Part shown: piece by piece, positions 44,841-51,840 of the stretch | Layout: every line of letters starts with the position of its first letter | How positions within the stretch are numbered: the first letter of the stretch is position 1 | Assembly (NCBI RefSeq): GCF_040409795.1 | Contig: NZ_CP099571.1 | Coordinates: 744,001-808,000 of the forward strand | Source of the DNA: Polynucleobacter sp. MWH-UH19D | Lineage (GTDB): Bacteria > Pseudomonadota > Gammaproteobacteria > Burkholderiales > Burkholderiaceae | DNA length: 64,000 nt | Reading direction: 5' to 3' | Translations under genes and position numbers: made by a program | Notes under the pieces: generated by a model | Told to the model about the DNA's origin: nothing | Database searches by the model: none | What the model saw: the letters and a program-made list of their open reading frames with translations, nothing else

Positions 44841-45830
44841 TTAAGGGAGCAAATGTTTGACGCCTGCTTGCTCCTCAAGCAATTCATTGAGGGTATGAGT
44901 CATACGCTCGCGAGAAAACTCATCGATCTCTAAGCCCTCAACCATTTTGTACTCACCGTTTTCGCAAGTAACAGGGAAGCCATAGATGACTTCAGCTGGA
45001 ATGCCGTATTCACCTTTAGATGGGATGCCCATAGTGACCCACTTGCCATTCGTGCCAAGTACCCAGTCATGGATGTGATCGATCGCTGCGTTAGCTGCTG
45101 AAGCTGCAGAAGAGAGACCGCGTGCGTCAATAATTGCAGCGCCACGCTTGCCAACAGTAGGAATAAATACATCTTTGTTCCACGCTGCATCATTGATGGA
45201 ATCTTTTACTGACTTGCCGTCAACCGTTGCAAAACGATAGTCGGGATACATGGTTGGGCTGTGGTTACCCCAAACAACTAACTTCTCAATACCAGCAACC
45301 GGTTTGTTCAGCTTAGTAGCTAATTGTGAGAGCGCGCGGTTGTGATCGAGGCGCAACATTGCTGTAAAGTTTTTCGCAGGAATATCTGGAGCAGATTTCA
45401 TGGCGATGTAAGCATTGGTGTTTGCTGGATTGCCAACAACCAATACTTTGACAGTTTTCTTAGCAACAGCATTTAATGCCTTACCTTGAGCGGTAAAGAT
45501 TTGAGCGTTAGCAGAGAGCAAGTCTTTGCGCTCCATACCAGGGCCACGAGGACGTGCACCTACCAACAGGGCAACATCGATATCTTTGAATGCGGTGAGT
45601 GGGTCAGAATGTGCGGTAACACCAGCCAACAATGGGAATGCGCAGTCTTCGAGCTCCATAATCACGCCAGCCAAGGCTTTTTGTGCTTTTTCATCAGGAA
45701 TTTCAAGCAATTGCAGGATGACAGGCTGATCTTTGCCTAATAAGTCGCCATTGGCGATGCGGAATAGAAGGGAATATCCGATTTGACCGGCTGCACCGGT
45801 TACGGCGACACGCATTGGGGCTTTTGCCAT
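44841..45830 (-). CDS. mdh: Malate dehydrogenase (NAD-dependent)
   Basis: 329 residues, the length of the cytosolic-type MDH found in Burkholderiales. Motifs are [59 protein letters not shown] and the catalytic His region [13 protein letters not shown]. It interconverts malate and oxaloacetate in the TCA cycle. It is divergent from the GntR regulator across 153 bp and is the clear candidate target of the palindrome there. Confidence 0.98.
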
Positions 45831-45894
45831 TGCTGATAACTCCAGAGGAAGGTTAATTGGGTTGATTAATAAAAACTTTTCTATTATCCATTCA

Positions 45895-45924
45895 AGTGTA
45901 TGGACTTTGCCTTTACACTGTCAA
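45895..45924 (-). promoter_or_regulatory. Candidate mdh promoter
   Basis: On the minus strand, perfect TTGACA (plus 45919-45924) is followed after 18 bp by TACACT (45895-45900, four of six matches). It leaves a leader of about 58 bases and sits 4 bp from the 14-bp palindrome. Confidence 0.5.
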
Positions 45925-45940
45925 TGATGTCTTATATAAG
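45912..45940 (+). promoter_or_regulatory. Candidate gntR promoter overlapping the operator
   Basis: TTTACA (45912-45917) and TATAAG (45935-45940) are separated by 17 bp; each matches five of six consensus bases. The -10 lies inside the perfect palindrome 45929-45942, the geometry of a self-repressed promoter. Confidence 0.5.
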
Positions 45941-45942
45941 AC
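45929..45942. promoter_or_regulatory. Perfect 14-bp palindrome, probable GntR operator
   Basis: GTCTTATATAAGAC equals its own reverse complement. It lies between mdh and the gntR gene, over the gntR -10 box and just upstream of the mdh -35 box. Palindromes of this size are typical targets of GntR-family regulators. I found no second copy before sdhC, gltA or leuC. Confidence 0.65.
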
Positions 45943-45983
45943 TAGAATTACTCAGAATTTTATCCAATTGATGTCCTTGTGGA

Positions 45984-46727
45984 GTGAATTTGTCAGAAGT
46001 AAATTTGCCTATTGCTTCATTTAGCCCGCTGTATGAGCAGATCAAAGCCATGATTTTGGCTAGTTTGCAGGCTGCAGAATGGTTGCCAGGTGATGCCATT
46101 CCTAGCGAAATGGAGCTTGCTGCGCGTTATGCAGTGAGTCAGGGTACGGTTCGCAAGGCAATTGATGAGTTGGCTGCCCAAAATTTACTGGTTAGGCGCC
46201 AAGGGAAGGGTACTTTCGTCGCCACCCATCAAGAAGATGATTGGCAATACCGTTTTTTACGCCTTTCTCCCGATTCTGGTGAAAAGTTCCATCTGATTAG
46301 TCAATTTTTAGCCTGTGAGCTAACTAAGGCTACTGATTATGTAGCTAATTTGCTTAAATTAAAGGCAGGTGACCCAGTCATTTATATAGATCGTATTCAG
46401 ACATTTGCAGGGCAACCCGTTGTTTTTGAAGAGATTTGGCTTCCAGGAAGCCGCTTCAAGGGCTTAGATCTAGACACACTCAATGATTGGCATGGACCAG
46501 TCTATGCGCTCTACGAGAGTCAATATGCCACCCATATGGTACGGGCGGAAGAAAAAATTAAGGCGGTTTCGGCTGACGAGAGTCTAGCTAAGCACCTCCA
46601 GTTGGCAATCAGCGCGCCATTGCTCTCAGTGGAGCGGGTCGCCTTCACCTACGGGAATAAACCAGTAGAAATTCGACACGCAAGATACGACACTTCTGAG
46701 CAACATTATGAAAATCGATTGAACTGA
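45984..46727 (+). CDS. GntR-family regulator (HutC subfamily, UTRA domain)
   Basis: About 247 residues. An N-terminal winged helix (LYEQIKAMILASLQ, GDAIPSEMELAARYAVSQGTVRKAID, the latter cited by its core SEMELAARYAVSQGTVRKA) is followed by a UTRA ligand-binding domain (PVIYIDRIQTFAGQPVVFEEIWLPG). The starts are GTG 45984 or TTG 45990. TTG fits the SD (GGAG at 45981-45984) better, because the GTG overlaps it. It lies between mdh and sdhC, so it probably senses a central-carbon metabolite and controls TCA genes. Confidence 0.9.
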   Translation: MNLSEVNLPIASFSPLYEQIKAMILASLQAAEWLPGDAIPSEMELAARYAVSQGTVRKAIDELAAQNLLVRRQGKGTFVATHQEDDWQYRFLRLSPDSGEKFHLISQFLACELTKATDYVANLLKLKAGDPVIYIDRIQTFAGQPVVFEEIWLPGSRFKGLDLDTLNDWHGPVYALYESQYATHMVRAEEKIKAVSADESLAKHLQLAISAPLLSVERVAFTYGNKPVEIRHARYDTSEQHYENRLN

Positions 46728-46797: not shown

Positions 46798-46819
46798 TAG
46801 AATATGTTGCGACACAACA
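46798..46819 (+). promoter_or_regulatory. Candidate sdhC promoter -10 and overlapping symmetric site
   Basis: TAGAAT (46798-46803) could be a -10, though no good -35 is visible. It is followed at once by TGTTG-CGACA-CAACA (46805-46819), a symmetric site with 5-bp arms. Transcription from this -10 would begin inside the site, suggesting a repressor target. Confidence 0.35.
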
Positions 46820-46858: not shown

Positions 46859-47278
46859 ATGGTTGATGCACAGCAAAACGTAAAAAAAGATAGACCGGTT
46901 TATCGAAATATTGGTCTAGCCCAGTTGGTGAAATACCGCCTTCCTTGGGCTGGCAAAGTTTCCATTCTTCATCGTATTAGTGGAGCAGCATTGTTCCTCT
47001 TGTTGCCATTCATTTTGTATCTCTTTGATCAAAGTTTGGCCTCTGAATTAAGTTATCAAAAATTCCAAGCTTTCACCAGCAACATCTTGGTGAAAATCAT
47101 TTGCTTGGGCTTGATCTGGTCTTTCTTGCACCACTTCTGCGCTGGTATTCGTTACCTCTTGCTCGATCTTGAGATCGGGGTAGAGAAGTCTGAGTCCAAT
47201 CGTTCAGCGATCATTGTTTTGGTGGTCGGTCTGGCGTTGACTGCGATTGTCGGTCTTAAATTATTCGGCTTGTACTAA
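46859..47278 (+). CDS. sdhC: Succinate dehydrogenase cytochrome b556 subunit
   Basis: About 139 residues with three membrane helices (about 42-60, 77-100 and 117-138). The signature HRISGAALFLLLP and the heme-ligand region FLHHFCAGIRYLLLD are typical of SdhC. It anchors the complex and helps bind heme b and ubiquinone. ATG 46859 is preferred over an in-frame TTG at 46853. It is the first gene of sdhCDABE. Confidence 0.95.
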   Translation: MVDAQQNVKKDRPVYRNIGLAQLVKYRLPWAGKVSILHRISGAALFLLLPFILYLFDQSLASELSYQKFQAFTSNILVKIICLGLIWSFLHHFCAGIRYLLLDLEIGVEKSESNRSAIIVLVVGLALTAIVGLKLFGLY

Positions 47279-47302
47279 GCGTTTCTTCATTAAGGAAATT
47301 TC

Positions 47303-47668
47303 ATGCCTATTTATCAAATTGGACCAAAGCGCTTAGTTGTAGGCGCACATTACGGCCTTAAAGAATGGATTATTCAGCGCGTCACTGCAATTGTGATGGT
47401 GGTGTTTACGGTTGTACTGCTTGTGGATTACTGCATCACTGGTAGCGCTACTTATGAAGGCTGGTCTGGCCTGTTTAGCAATCAGTTGATGAAGTTATTA
47501 ACACTCTTGGCTTTGTTTAGTCTTTTCTATCACGCATGGATTGGTGTGCGTGATATTTGGATGGACTACATCAAGCCAGTTGGTATTCGTTTGACACTGC
47601 AAGTGTTAACTGTTTTGTATCTCGTGGCCTGTGCGGCCTACGCCGTTCAAATTTTGTGGAAAGTGTAA
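47303..47668 (+). CDS. sdhD: Succinate dehydrogenase membrane anchor subunit
   Basis: 121 residues with three hydrophobic helices (about 31-48, 57-78 and 97-118). GLKEWIIQRVTAIVMV and LFYHAWIGVRDIWMDYIKP are SdhD signatures, with the heme-ligand His in FYHAWIGV. It sits 24 bp after sdhC and 4 bp before sdhA. Confidence 0.95.
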   Translation: MPIYQIGPKRLVVGAHYGLKEWIIQRVTAIVMVVFTVVLLVDYCITGSATYEGWSGLFSNQLMKLLTLLALFSLFYHAWIGVRDIWMDYIKPVGIRLTLQVLTVLYLVACAAYAVQILWKV

Positions 47669-47672
47669 TTCG

Positions 47673-49451
47673 ATGACTGCAATTCAAAAATCATTGCCAC
47701 GCCGCCGTTTTGATGCGGTGATTGTTGGTGCGGGTGGTTCAGGTATGCGTGCTTCATTGCAGTTGGCGGAAGCTGGCTTAAATGTTGCTGTACTAAGTAA
47801 AGTATTCCCAACGCGTTCACACACTGTTGCAGCGCAGGGTGGTATCGGCGCTTCACTCGGTAACATGAGTGAAGACAATTGGCACTATCACTTCTATGAC
47901 ACCATCAAAGGCTCTGACTGGTTGGGTGACCAAGATGTGATCGAGTTTATGTGTCGTGAAGCTCCAAAAGTGGTTTATGAGTTAGAGCACTTTGGTATGC
48001 CATTTGACCGTAACCCTGACGGTACAATCTATCAGCGTCCATTCGGTGGTCACACTGCAAACTATGGTGAGAAGCCAGTGCAACGCGCTTGTGCTGCGGC
48101 TGACCGTACTGGTCATGCGATGTTGCACACTCTGTATCAGCGCAACGTACGTGCAAAGACCAACTTCTTTGTTGAGTGGTTGGCGCTCGATTTAATTCGT
48201 GATGATGAGGGCGATGTCGTTGGTGTAACTGCTCTCGAAATGGAAACTGGTCAGGTATACATCTTGGAAGCCAAGATTGTGATGTTGGCTACCGGTGGTG
48301 CAGGCCGTATTTGGGATGCATCTACTAACGCGTTTATTAATACTGGTGACGGTATGGGTCTTGCAGCGCGCGCCGGTATTCCATTGGAAGATATGGAGTT
48401 CTGGCAATTCCACCCAACTGGCGTTGCTGGTGCAGGCGTGTTGTTGACGGAAGGTTGCCGCGGTGAAGGCGGTATCTTGCGTAACAAAGATGGCGAGCGT
48501 TTCATGGAGCGTTATGCGCCAACTTTGAAAGACTTGGCTCCACGTGACTTCGTATCACGCTCGATGGACCAAGAAATTAAAGAAGGGCGCGGTTGTGGTC
48601 CGAATGGTGACTATGTTGTGCTTGATCTGACACACATTGGTGCCGATACGATCATGAAGCGTTTGCCATCTGTTTATGAGATTGGCATTAACTTTGCGAA
48701 CGTTGACGTCACCAAAGAGCCAATTCCAGTTGTGCCAACCATTCACTATCAGATGGGTGGTATTCCTACCAACATCAATGGTCAAGTGGTTGTGCCAGCT
48801 AATGGGAAACACAATGAGGTCATTAATGGCTTATATGCAATTGGTGAGTGCTCATGTGTTTCAGTGCACGGTGCAAACCGCTTAGGTACAAACTCATTGC
48901 TCGACCTTTTGGTATTCGGTCGTGCAGCGGGTAACCATATCGTTAGCTTGGATCTCAAGAATCGTGAGTTCAAACCATTGCCTAAGAATGCTGGTCAGCA
49001 AACCATGGAGCGTATTGCGAAGTTGGATAGCTCGACTTCTGGTGAGTACGCACAAGATGTTGCAAACGATATTCGTAAGTGCATGCAGAAATACGCCGGT
49101 GTATTCCGCAATCAAGAGTTGATGGACGAGGGTGTCCGTCAAATGGCGAAGTTGACTGAGCGTGCGAAGCATTTGTGGGTTAAAGATAAATCTGAGATTT
49201 TTAATACCGCGCGTATTGAAGCTTTAGAAGTGGCTAACTTGGTTGAGACTGCAAATGCAACGATGACCTCAGCAGCTGCTCGTAAAGAAAGCCGTGGTGC
49301 TCACTCTCATGATGATCACCCACATCGTGATGATGCTAACTGGATGAAGCACACGCTCTGGTATAGCGAAGGCAACCGCTTGGATTACAAGCCAGTGCAG
49401 CTAAAACCATTAACTGTTGATTCAGTTCCTCCAAAAGAACGTACTTTCTAA
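47673..49451 (+). CDS. sdhA: Succinate dehydrogenase flavoprotein subunit
   Basis: 592 residues. The FAD motif VIVGAGGSGMRAS is near the N-terminus, and the covalent FAD His is in TRSHTVAAQGGIGASLGN. Active-site motifs include FWQFHPTGVAG, GCRGEGGILRNKDGERFM and HGANRLGTNSLLDLLVFGR. It oxidises succinate to fumarate on the cytoplasmic side. A longer open frame starts at 47631 inside sdhD; ATG 47673 is preferred because the conserved FAD fold begins there. Confidence 0.98.
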   Translation: MTAIQKSLPRRRFDAVIVGAGGSGMRASLQLAEAGLNVAVLSKVFPTRSHTVAAQGGIGASLGNMSEDNWHYHFYDTIKGSDWLGDQDVIEFMCREAPKVVYELEHFGMPFDRNPDGTIYQRPFGGHTANYGEKPVQRACAAADRTGHAMLHTLYQRNVRAKTNFFVEWLALDLIRDDEGDVVGVTALEMETGQVYILEAKIVMLATGGAGRIWDASTNAFINTGDGMGLAARAGIPLEDMEFWQFHPTGVAGAGVLLTEGCRGEGGILRNKDGERFMERYAPTLKDLAPRDFVSRSMDQEIKEGRGCGPNGDYVVLDLTHIGADTIMKRLPSVYEIGINFANVDVTKEPIPVVPTIHYQMGGIPTNINGQVVVPANGKHNEVINGLYAIGECSCVSVHGANRLGTNSLLDLLVFGRAAGNHIVSLDLKNREFKPLPKNAGQQTMERIAKLDSSTSGEYAQDVANDIRKCMQKYAGVFRNQELMDEGVRQMAKLTERAKHLWVKDKSEIFNTARIEALEVANLVETANATMTSAAARKESRGAHSHDDHPHRDDANWMKHTLWYSEGNRLDYKPVQLKPLTVDSVPPKERTF

Positions 49452-49467
49452 GCAAGAGAGATAGAAG

Positions 49468-50172
49468 ATGAGCGATACCCGTATATTTGAAATCTACCGT
49501 TACGATCCAGATGTCGATGCAGCGCCACGCATGCAGCGCTATGAGTTAGAGCTGACTGGTGAGCGCATGTTGTTGGATGCGTTGATTTCTTTGAAGAAAC
49601 AAGACGAGACAATTTCTTATCGTCGTTCATGCCGTGAAGGTGTGTGCGGTTCTGATGCGATGAACATCAATGGTAAGAATGGCTTGGCTTGCTTAACCAA
49701 TATGTTGACTTTGCCTAAGGTCATCACCTTGCGCCCATTACCTGGCTTGCCTGTAGTGCGCGATTTGATTGTGGATATGACTTTGTTCTTCAAACAATAT
49801 TTGTCAATCAAGCCTTACTTGGTAAACGATAATCCACCTCCAGAAAAAGAGCGTCTCCAGAGTCCTGAAGAGCGTGAAGAGTTGAACGGTTTGTATGAGT
49901 GCATCTTGTGTGCTTCATGCTCAACTTCATGCCCATCATTCTGGTGGAATCCAGATAAGTTTGTAGGCCCAGCTGGTTTGTTACAGGCATATCGCTTTAT
50001 TGCTGATAGCCGTGACGAGGAAACCGCAAAACGTTTGGATAACTTAGAAGATCCGTATCGTTTATTCCGCTGCCATACCATCATGAATTGTGTGGATGTA
50101 TGTCCTAAGCATTTGAACCCAACGAAGGCGATTGGCAAGATCAAGGAGTTGATGGTTCGTAGGGCGGTATGA
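49468..50172 (+). CDS. sdhB: Succinate dehydrogenase iron-sulfur subunit
   Basis: 234 residues. Cluster motifs are in order: [2Fe-2S] CREGVCGSDAMNINGKNGLAC (here cited CREGVCGSD ... GLAC), [4Fe-4S] CILCASCSTSCPSFWW and [3Fe-4S] CHTIMNCVDVCPKHLNP. It carries electrons from SdhA to ubiquinone. A purine-rich SD precedes it, and its stop overlaps the sdhE start (ATGA). Confidence 0.98.
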   Translation: MSDTRIFEIYRYDPDVDAAPRMQRYELELTGERMLLDALISLKKQDETISYRRSCREGVCGSDAMNINGKNGLACLTNMLTLPKVITLRPLPGLPVVRDLIVDMTLFFKQYLSIKPYLVNDNPPPEKERLQSPEEREELNGLYECILCASCSTSCPSFWWNPDKFVGPAGLLQAYRFIADSRDEETAKRLDNLEDPYRLFRCHTIMNCVDVCPKHLNPTKAIGKIKELMVRRAV

Positions 50173-50438
50173 CCCTCGGCAATGCAGAGTTATATCGCTT
50201 AAAGAGTGATGCTCGTAGGGGCTTGCTCGAGAATGATCTAATTCTGCAGCGTTTCTTTGCTCGTTACGGCGATCAGTTAAGCGTAGAAGATGGAAAAGTA
50301 TTAAGCCAGTTATTGGCCTTAGATGACAACGATTTGATGGATTTATTGATCGCTCGAAAAGATTCTGTGGCTGGATTGGAAAAGGAGATGCAGTCTGACT
50401 CCTTTAAGAAAGTTTTACAAAGGCTGAGAGAGAAGTAA
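50169..50438 (+). CDS. sdhE: Succinate dehydrogenase FAD assembly factor SdhE
   Basis: 89 residues, the normal size for SdhE/CptB. The motif RRGLLENDLILQRFF contains the conserved RGxxExD signature that binds SdhA, and LLALDDNDLMDLLIARK follows. It promotes covalent FAD attachment to SdhA. It overlaps sdhB by 4 bp. Confidence 0.95.
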   Translation: MTLGNAELYRLKSDARRGLLENDLILQRFFARYGDQLSVEDGKVLSQLLALDDNDLMDLLIARKDSVAGLEKEMQSDSFKKVLQRLREK

Positions 50439-50526: not shown

Positions 50527-51840
50527 ATGATTGAATCGGACATCAAGGCAAAACTCTCGTTTTCGGATGGCACCCCAGATATTGATCTGCCAATTTACAA
50601 AGGGACAGTTGGCCCAGATGTAATTGACATCCGTAAGCTTTATGGTCAGACCGGTAAGTTCACTTACGATTCCGGCTTCCTTTCTACTGCGTCATGCAAT
50701 AGCAAAATTACCTATATCGATGGCGATAAGGGTGAATTGCTCTATCGTGGTTACCCAATTGAGGATTTAGCAGGCAAGTGCGACTTCTTGGAAGTTTGCT
50801 ACCTCTTAATCAATGGTGAATTACCAAACGCAAAAGATAAAAAAGATTTTGAGAATATGGTCATGCACCACACGATGGTTCATGAGCAAATGCAATTCTT
50901 CTTGCGCGGCTTCCGTCGTGACGCTCACCCAATGTCTGTGCTGACTGGTTTAGTTGGTGCGATGGCTGCTTTCTACCACGATGAGATCGACTACAGCGAG
51001 CCCTATGCTCGTGAAGTAGCGCAGATTCGTTTGATTGCCAAGATGCCAACTTTGGTAGCAATGGCTTATAAATATTCTGTAGGACAACCATTTATCTATC
51101 CTGATAATTCTTTGTCATACACTGCGAACTTTATGCGCATGATGTTTGCAACACCATGTGAAGAGTACAAAGTAAATCCTGTGCTGGTTCGTGCTTTGGA
51201 CCGTATCTTCACGTTGCATGCAGACCATGAGCAAAATGCTTCCACCTCCACAGTGCGCTTGTGCGGTTCTTCAGGCACCAATCCATTTGCTGCGATTTCT
51301 GCTGGTATTGCTTGCTTGTGGGGTCCTGCACACGGTGGTGCTAACGAAGCTTGCTTGCAGATGCTCAATGAGATTCAGGCAAATGGTGGCGTAGATAAGA
51401 TCCATGAATTCATTGCACAAGTAAAAGATAAGAATTCTGGCGTTCGTTTGATGGGCTTTGGTCATCGCGTTTATAAGAACTTTGACCCACGCGCTAAATT
51501 GATGCGTGAGACATGCTATGAAGTCCTGAATGAACTTGGTTTGCAAGATGATCCATTGTTCAAGTTGGCAATGACTCTTGAGAAGATTGCATTGGAAGAC
51601 GATTACTTTGTAAGCCGTAAGCTCTATCCAAACGTTGACTTCTACTCTGGAATCGTTCAGCGCGCACTCGGCATCCCAACTGAAATGTTCACCTGTATTT
51701 TTGCATTAGCAAGAACAGTAGGTTGGATTGCTCAATGGGAAGAAATGATTACGGATCCTGAATACAAGATTGGACGTCCACGTCAGTTATATGTTGGCGA
51801 AACTTCACGTAAGGTCCCAGATATTTCTACACGTAAATAA
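50527..51840 (+). CDS. gltA: Citrate synthase, type II
   Basis: 437 residues, typical of the hexameric proteobacterial enzyme. Conserved regions are [21 protein letters not shown] (shortened: [17 protein letters not shown]), [35 protein letters not shown] and the catalytic [15 protein letters not shown]. It condenses oxaloacetate and acetyl-CoA. It has SD AAGGA and follows sdhE after 88 bp. It is only 17 bp before leuC, so leucine genes may be read from the TCA transcript. Confidence 0.98.

Follow-up and report, generated by a model that had tools for sequence, protein, structure and literature searches.

The regulator gene examined here lies in a 64,000-nucleotide stretch (the window, positions 744001-808000) of the 1,950,979-base genome of Polynucleobacter sp. 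MWH-UH19D, in which the regulator gene, sdhCDAB and gltA follow one another on the plus strand and mdh is divergent (Table 1). The presence of both a GntR winged-helix domain and a UTRA domain places the protein in the HutC subfamily. Its start may alternatively be the TTG at 45990, which has GGAG ahead of it. The closest named relatives, among the best 80 of 590 matches, were from Polynucleobacter strains, with up to 87% identity. The predicted fold (mean pLDDT 81) and the structure search confirm the regulator class at the level of a model, and neither pointed to an effector. The best match, both of the protein sequence (E 8e-37) and of the structure model (41-42% identity and TM 0.93-0.94, scored by target), was PDB 3cnv, the UTRA domain of a GntR regulator from a Bordetella species, which differs in comprising the ligand-binding domain only. 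DasR and YvoA, also of the HutC subfamily, share the domain order and fold class of the window regulator. Their structures were solved with sugar phosphates, their operator and regulon differ from those described here, and their effector cannot be transferred to the window regulator. The recognition helix reads SRTTVRQAL in DasR, compared with SQGTVRKAI in the window regulator.

Table 1. Features of the mdh-gntR-sdh locus and of the sRNA gene carrying the second perfect copy of the palindrome
Feature	Position	Strand	Basis
mdh, malate dehydrogenase	44841..45830	-	NF003916, 569 bits (cut-off 271)
mdh promoter candidate, TTGACA-N18-TACACT	45895..45924	-	consensus scan, 10/12 matches
gntR (sdhR) promoter candidate, TTTACA-N17-TATAAG	45912..45940	+	-10 inside the palindrome
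Palindrome GTCTTATATAAGAC, proposed SdhR operator	45929..45942	.	sequence match and conservation
GntR/UTRA regulator (HutC subfamily), SdhR	45984..46727	+	Pfam GntR 1.6e-20, UTRA 2.4e-30
sdhCDAB and small sdhE-like ORF behind sdhB	46859..50438	+	ORFs, named by eye
gltA, citrate synthase, next downstream	50527..51840	+	ORF, named by eye
RF02278 sRNA gene	L002:1423-1514 (1780198-1780289 of the genome)	-	51.8 bits (gathering cut-off 50)

A reading made from the sequence alone had placed a palindrome, GTCTTATATAAGAC, at 45929-45942 over the gntR -10 and next to the mdh -35, and inspection of the sequence bore this out together with the quoted hexamers. On the plus strand, TTTACA (45912-45917) is separated by 17 nt from TATAAG (45935-45940), while on the minus strand TTGACA (45924-45919) is followed after 18 nt by TACACT; 4 bp separate this candidate mdh -35 from the palindrome, which is upstream of it. 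A conserved block, CTATTATCCATTCAAGTG (45881-45898), carries a minus-strand box similar to GATAAT and is a candidate for an alternative mdh -10 region. The consensus scan picked up the mdh promoter candidate and missed that of gntR, and the number of promoter matches in the region (2 versus 1.8 expected from shuffles) was at the shuffled level. In an alignment of 20 mdh-gntR spacers from the genus and its near relatives, the palindrome was perfect in 18 and had one mismatch in two. By eye, TTTACA was present in 17 of these spacers (the exceptions being L047, L052 and L053), the gntR -35 not being retained in the divergent clade, and TTGACA was kept in 15.

The window contains seven perfect 14-bp palindromes, so that palindromicity alone is weak evidence. 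Under a third-order model of the window, however, GTCTTATATAAGAC is expected only 0.0006 times in the 1.95-Mb genome, which held two perfect and two one-mismatch copies. The genome-wide search with up to two mismatches that the sequence-only reading had called for proved too loose, since it gave six places versus 14 for a reversed-pattern control (per strand); consequently, only perfect or one-mismatch copies, or conserved placements, carry weight. The two places with two mismatches were discarded as chance occurrences, because there was no excess over the control and the adjoining genes looked unrelated by eye.

Perfect copies of the palindrome were found in 178 of 200 family genomes, MWH-UH19D included, compared with two of 200 for the reversed pattern. 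In a sample of the class comprising 143 genomes including MWH-UH19D, only one of the other 142 belonging to the same order, there was no perfect copy in any of the 142, and the control occurred in two. The regulator (E up to 1e-50) was present in 182 of the 200 family genomes. Site and regulator were both present in 176 and both absent from 16, with the site alone in two and the regulator alone in six; the corresponding Fisher p of 6e-17 ignores relatedness and is inflated by small endosymbiont genomes. In the three of the six regulator-only genomes that were inspected, a site with one or two mismatches was in place (L115, L055 and L056), and in two genomes of the genus that have no perfect copy (G182, G194) ATCTTATAAAAGAC occupied the equivalent position.

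Conservation of the palindrome wherever the mdh-gntR order is kept, on which the earlier proposal had been made to depend, was upheld. A site with at most two mismatches was located within 700 bp upstream of the regulator gene in all 80 named loci, the best 80 of 590 matches (50 perfect, 25 with one mismatch and five with two). Among these loci, mdh was divergent in all 78 whose contig extends that far and sdh was downstream of the regulator in 77 of 80. They represent Polynucleobacter, Ralstonia, Cupriavidus, Pandoraea, Caballeronia, Paraburkholderia, Undibacterium, Massilia, Duganella, Herbaspirillum, Hydrogenophaga, Limnohabitans, Leptothrix and other genera. In one genome (G023, L078:267-1250), an ORF that by eye resembles a transposase separates mdh from the regulator gene; the palindrome stays at mdh, some 1.3 kb from the regulator.

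The MWH-UH19D genome has its one-mismatch copies in front of acnB, at a distance of 87 bp, and in front of aceA, at 69 bp. Across the genus, in the best 30 of 39 places for each gene, a site with at most one mismatch was found at all 30 aceA loci and at 24 of 30 acnB loci, being absent from the other six. At aceA the site in the 30 Polynucleobacter loci is always the one-mismatch form CTCTTATATAAGAC, nearly always with a third half-site, ATAAGAC, behind it.

The targets were surveyed in 24 genomes, chosen by hand among those with a match, in which all 50 perfect copies were looked at; target genes were named via representatives, and two of the nine icd assignments were made separately. Named targets accounted for 49 of the 50 copies: gntR/mdh (21), icd (9), aceA of the long PRK06498 type (8), acnB (5), glcB, encoding malate synthase G (3), monomeric isocitrate dehydrogenase (IDH; 2) and tam, encoding trans-aconitate methyltransferase (1). 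The one copy without an assigned target (L068:1501-1514, in G021) lies in a locus that gave no Rfam match at E 0.01. Aconitate, isocitrate and malate are the metabolites around which the target enzymes group. At most of the icd sites, the gene on the other side is a divergent RluE-like one, which could therefore be a passenger. In L083:696-1514, the palindrome stands before the gene for trans-aconitate methyltransferase (NF002463, 348.9 bits, cut-off 297), a hint that the regulon includes aconitate chemistry. On a Paracoccus plasmid (L066), a GntR protein with 39% identity is encoded beside tricarboxylate-transporter genes; a similar but wider palindrome, ATCTTATATATTATAAGAT, lies upstream of its gene (L066:4906-4924), and CTCTTATATAAAAC lies between the transporter genes (L066:2503-2516).

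The pairing of regulator and motif is an earlier prediction and so is not new here. In the portion of PMC4494728 available, which cites Suvorova et al. (2012, J Bacteriol 194:3234), SdhR is described as a HutC-subfamily GntR regulator with the predicted motif TCTTATGTCTTATATAAGACATAAGA and as an exception to the usual HutC GT-N4-AC spacing. The core GTCTTATATAAGAC is contained in the published motif and the subfamily is the same; moreover, the name points to sdh, which is downstream of the window regulator. Since this pair had been published as a prediction, the window protein is one more member, from Polynucleobacter, of a regulon known by prediction. Its operator also departs from the typical HutC one, GT and AC being ten nucleotides apart in GTCTTATATAAGAC rather than four. 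Unlike the published motif, the window copy has weak outer half-sites (TCTTAT...ATAAGA), with three and one of seven matches by eye. Many other copies do carry these additional half-sites, as the published consensus does; the corresponding means were 5.1 and 4.1 at the named gntR loci (best 80 of 590), 4.9 and 5.5 at aceA and 2.9 and 3.5 at acnB in the genus, with 1.7-1.9 for random sequence. The open-licence literature, which omits most subscription papers, yielded no experimental study of an SdhR-type regulator, and the accessible parts of PMC5343134 and PMC2864759 contained nothing on one.

To judge from these comparisons, the palindrome is very probably the operator of the predicted SdhR, serving autorepression, read-through into sdh, a regulon at the TCA/glyoxylate node and release by an organic acid. 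What was observed is the sequence, its conservation, its co-occurrence with the regulator and the neighbouring genes; binding, autorepression, read-through and the effector are what we infer. A regulator dimer would bind the two GTCTTAT half-sites and cover the gntR -10, a position for which repression of the regulator's own gene is the best reading. Repression of gntR would extend by read-through to the sdh operon: no second site before sdhC was found within three mismatches in the 64-kb window, so that sdh control would go via the gntR transcript, and a further promoter may lie in the 131-bp gap before sdhC. In front of mdh, the site is just ahead of the -35 candidate, a placement that would allow either repression or activation. 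The same regulator would govern acnB and aceA in MWH-UH19D and icd, glcB, monomeric IDH and tam in relatives. The composition of this regulon suggests a tri- or dicarboxylate effector, a small organic acid of the TCA/glyoxylate node that would bind the UTRA domain and presumably release the regulator. The original proposal that the regulator uses the palindrome as operator for itself, mdh and TCA genes is thus well supported by the conservation, the co-occurrence and the neighbours of the other copies, and its extension to sdhCDAB stands as a presumed read-through.

A different inverted repeat, TGTTG-N5-CAACA, is situated between gntR and sdhC (46805-46819) and was present in most, not all, of the genus loci scanned. 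It differs from the SdhR motif and was rejected as a second SdhR site. Many RF02278 sRNA genes have a TTGC-N-GCA element resembling it close to their -35.

The other perfect copy in the MWH-UH19D genome (L002:1501-1514) is located in the leader of the RF02278 sRNA gene, upstream of rplM. With E up to 0.01, 38 of the 41 genomes of the genus gave an RF02278 match, which exceeded the cut-off in 29. In 23 of 30 listed genus loci the palindrome, with at most two mismatches, lay 19 nt before a CU-rich element, TCTCCTCC; it was absent from the remaining seven. A conserved TAGAAT/TACAAT box ahead of the palindrome suggests that the site is probably transcribed. Among RF02278 loci of other genera (30 of about 150 places), none had the palindrome within 160 nt upstream, the best having five mismatches, and the sRNA link, if real, would thus be a Polynucleobacter invention. 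When 20 further palindrome loci were scanned against Rfam at E 0.01, one tRNA and no sRNA came up.

The chances are evenly balanced that the palindrome in the sRNA leader is instead the apex of an RNA hairpin, unconnected with the regulator. The predicted fold of the leader puts it at the tip. In 18 aligned leaders (17 distinct), the outer pair 17-45 changes from U-A to C-G in three rows, double changes occur in three of 11 predicted pairs, and the covariation score was higher than in 499 of 500 shuffles and in every slid version. The sRNA copies also lack the published outer half-sites (means of 0.8 and 2.7 of 7, random being about 1.8), and the absence of the site from all 30 loci of other genera points the same way. 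However, the tip is a rare 14-mer found elsewhere almost only at SdhR-type targets, and its variants GTCTTATATAAGAG and GTCTTGTATAAGAC resemble the aceA/acnB and gntR forms of the site. Moreover, the inner pairs are invariant, and two pairs at the palindrome edge cannot form in 6-7 of 17 rows. Of the five measures, two fell within the shuffles (double-change pairs, 114/500; pair types, 345/500), and the rest may be inflated by relatedness. The sRNA copy could be an operator, an RNA hairpin or perhaps both. Tentatively, and with slightly more doubt than belief, we propose that in the main Polynucleobacter clade the TCA regulator also controls an anti-Shine-Dalgarno double-hairpin sRNA via a site just past the start point, the same 14 letters serving as DNA operator and RNA tip.

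Duplex energies of the sRNA were ranked over 56 ORF starts of the window together with acnB, aceA, rplM and OsmC (60 in total). The TCA genes fell below the top of the ranking (gntR 6, acnB 12, aceA 17, mdh 18, sdhC 28, gltA 33), which gives no support to them as sRNA targets. The Neisseria sibling sRNAs NmsR and NgncR_162-163 are likewise CU-rich and anti-Shine-Dalgarno. According to the available part of PMC5362039, the NmsRs act on prpB, prpC, sdhC, gltA, sucC and fumC, but are reported to be under RelA/stringent-response control, and GntR does not occur in the accessible text of a gonococcal sRNA paper (PMC9973317). The action of the Neisseria sRNAs on TCA mRNAs, as far as these excerpts describe it, gives the regulator-sRNA idea enough merit for a test, no more. 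The double-hairpin sRNAs of Burkholderia cenocepacia belong to the same RF02278 family, which Rfam names Betaproteobacteria toxic sRNA; the portion of PMC5688073 available mentions a shared upstream motif, reports no complementarity to TCA-cycle genes and does not contain the term GntR.

At the mdh-gntR spacer itself, it is rather unlikely that the regulator represses only its own gene and activates mdh, and perhaps others. The centre of the site, estimated by hand, is near -47 from the presumed mdh start, a classical activator position, and wherever TTGACA occurs in the aligned spacers, it stays at 3-4 bp from the site. The mdh promoter is only a candidate, however, and in other genera the distance from the site to the mdh gene start ranges from 93 to 476 bp, which would not suit the fixed geometry of an activator. 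Binding of the palindrome by another, unlinked regulator, with the adjacent gntR merely one of its targets, is very improbable. The departure from the HutC GT-N4-AC pattern given in the available text of PMC4494728 would fit such a regulator, but the presence or absence of the site tracks the adjacent regulator gene in the 200 family genomes, the site precedes gntR in every one of the 80 named loci (best 80 of 590), the published prediction, in the part available, pairs motif with protein, and a recognition helix unlike that of DasR fits an unusual motif. A chance palindrome, retained for no other reason than that the gntR -10 forms its right half, might be entertained given the seven in the window, but is refuted by the distribution of the copies, with both halves conserved, identical copies at functionally linked genes and restriction to a clade, and has practically no likelihood left.

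On these sequence comparisons, the palindrome is a real, conserved operator of an earlier-predicted regulator, of an ordinary kind, with further copies at TCA genes and one open lead, the sRNA. It is probably the switch by which the regulator controls many citric-acid-cycle genes in Burkholderia-related bacteria. A regulator with a sharply defined operator would thereby be tied to central carbon metabolism across the Burkholderiaceae and relatives, and a single switch would serve both the isocitrate branch point (aceA versus icd) and malate dehydrogenase. If the sRNA link is true, control in Polynucleobacter would gain a second, RNA layer, recalling Neisseria, and a small-genome freshwater bacterium would possess a mixed transcriptional and post-transcriptional circuit around its central metabolism.
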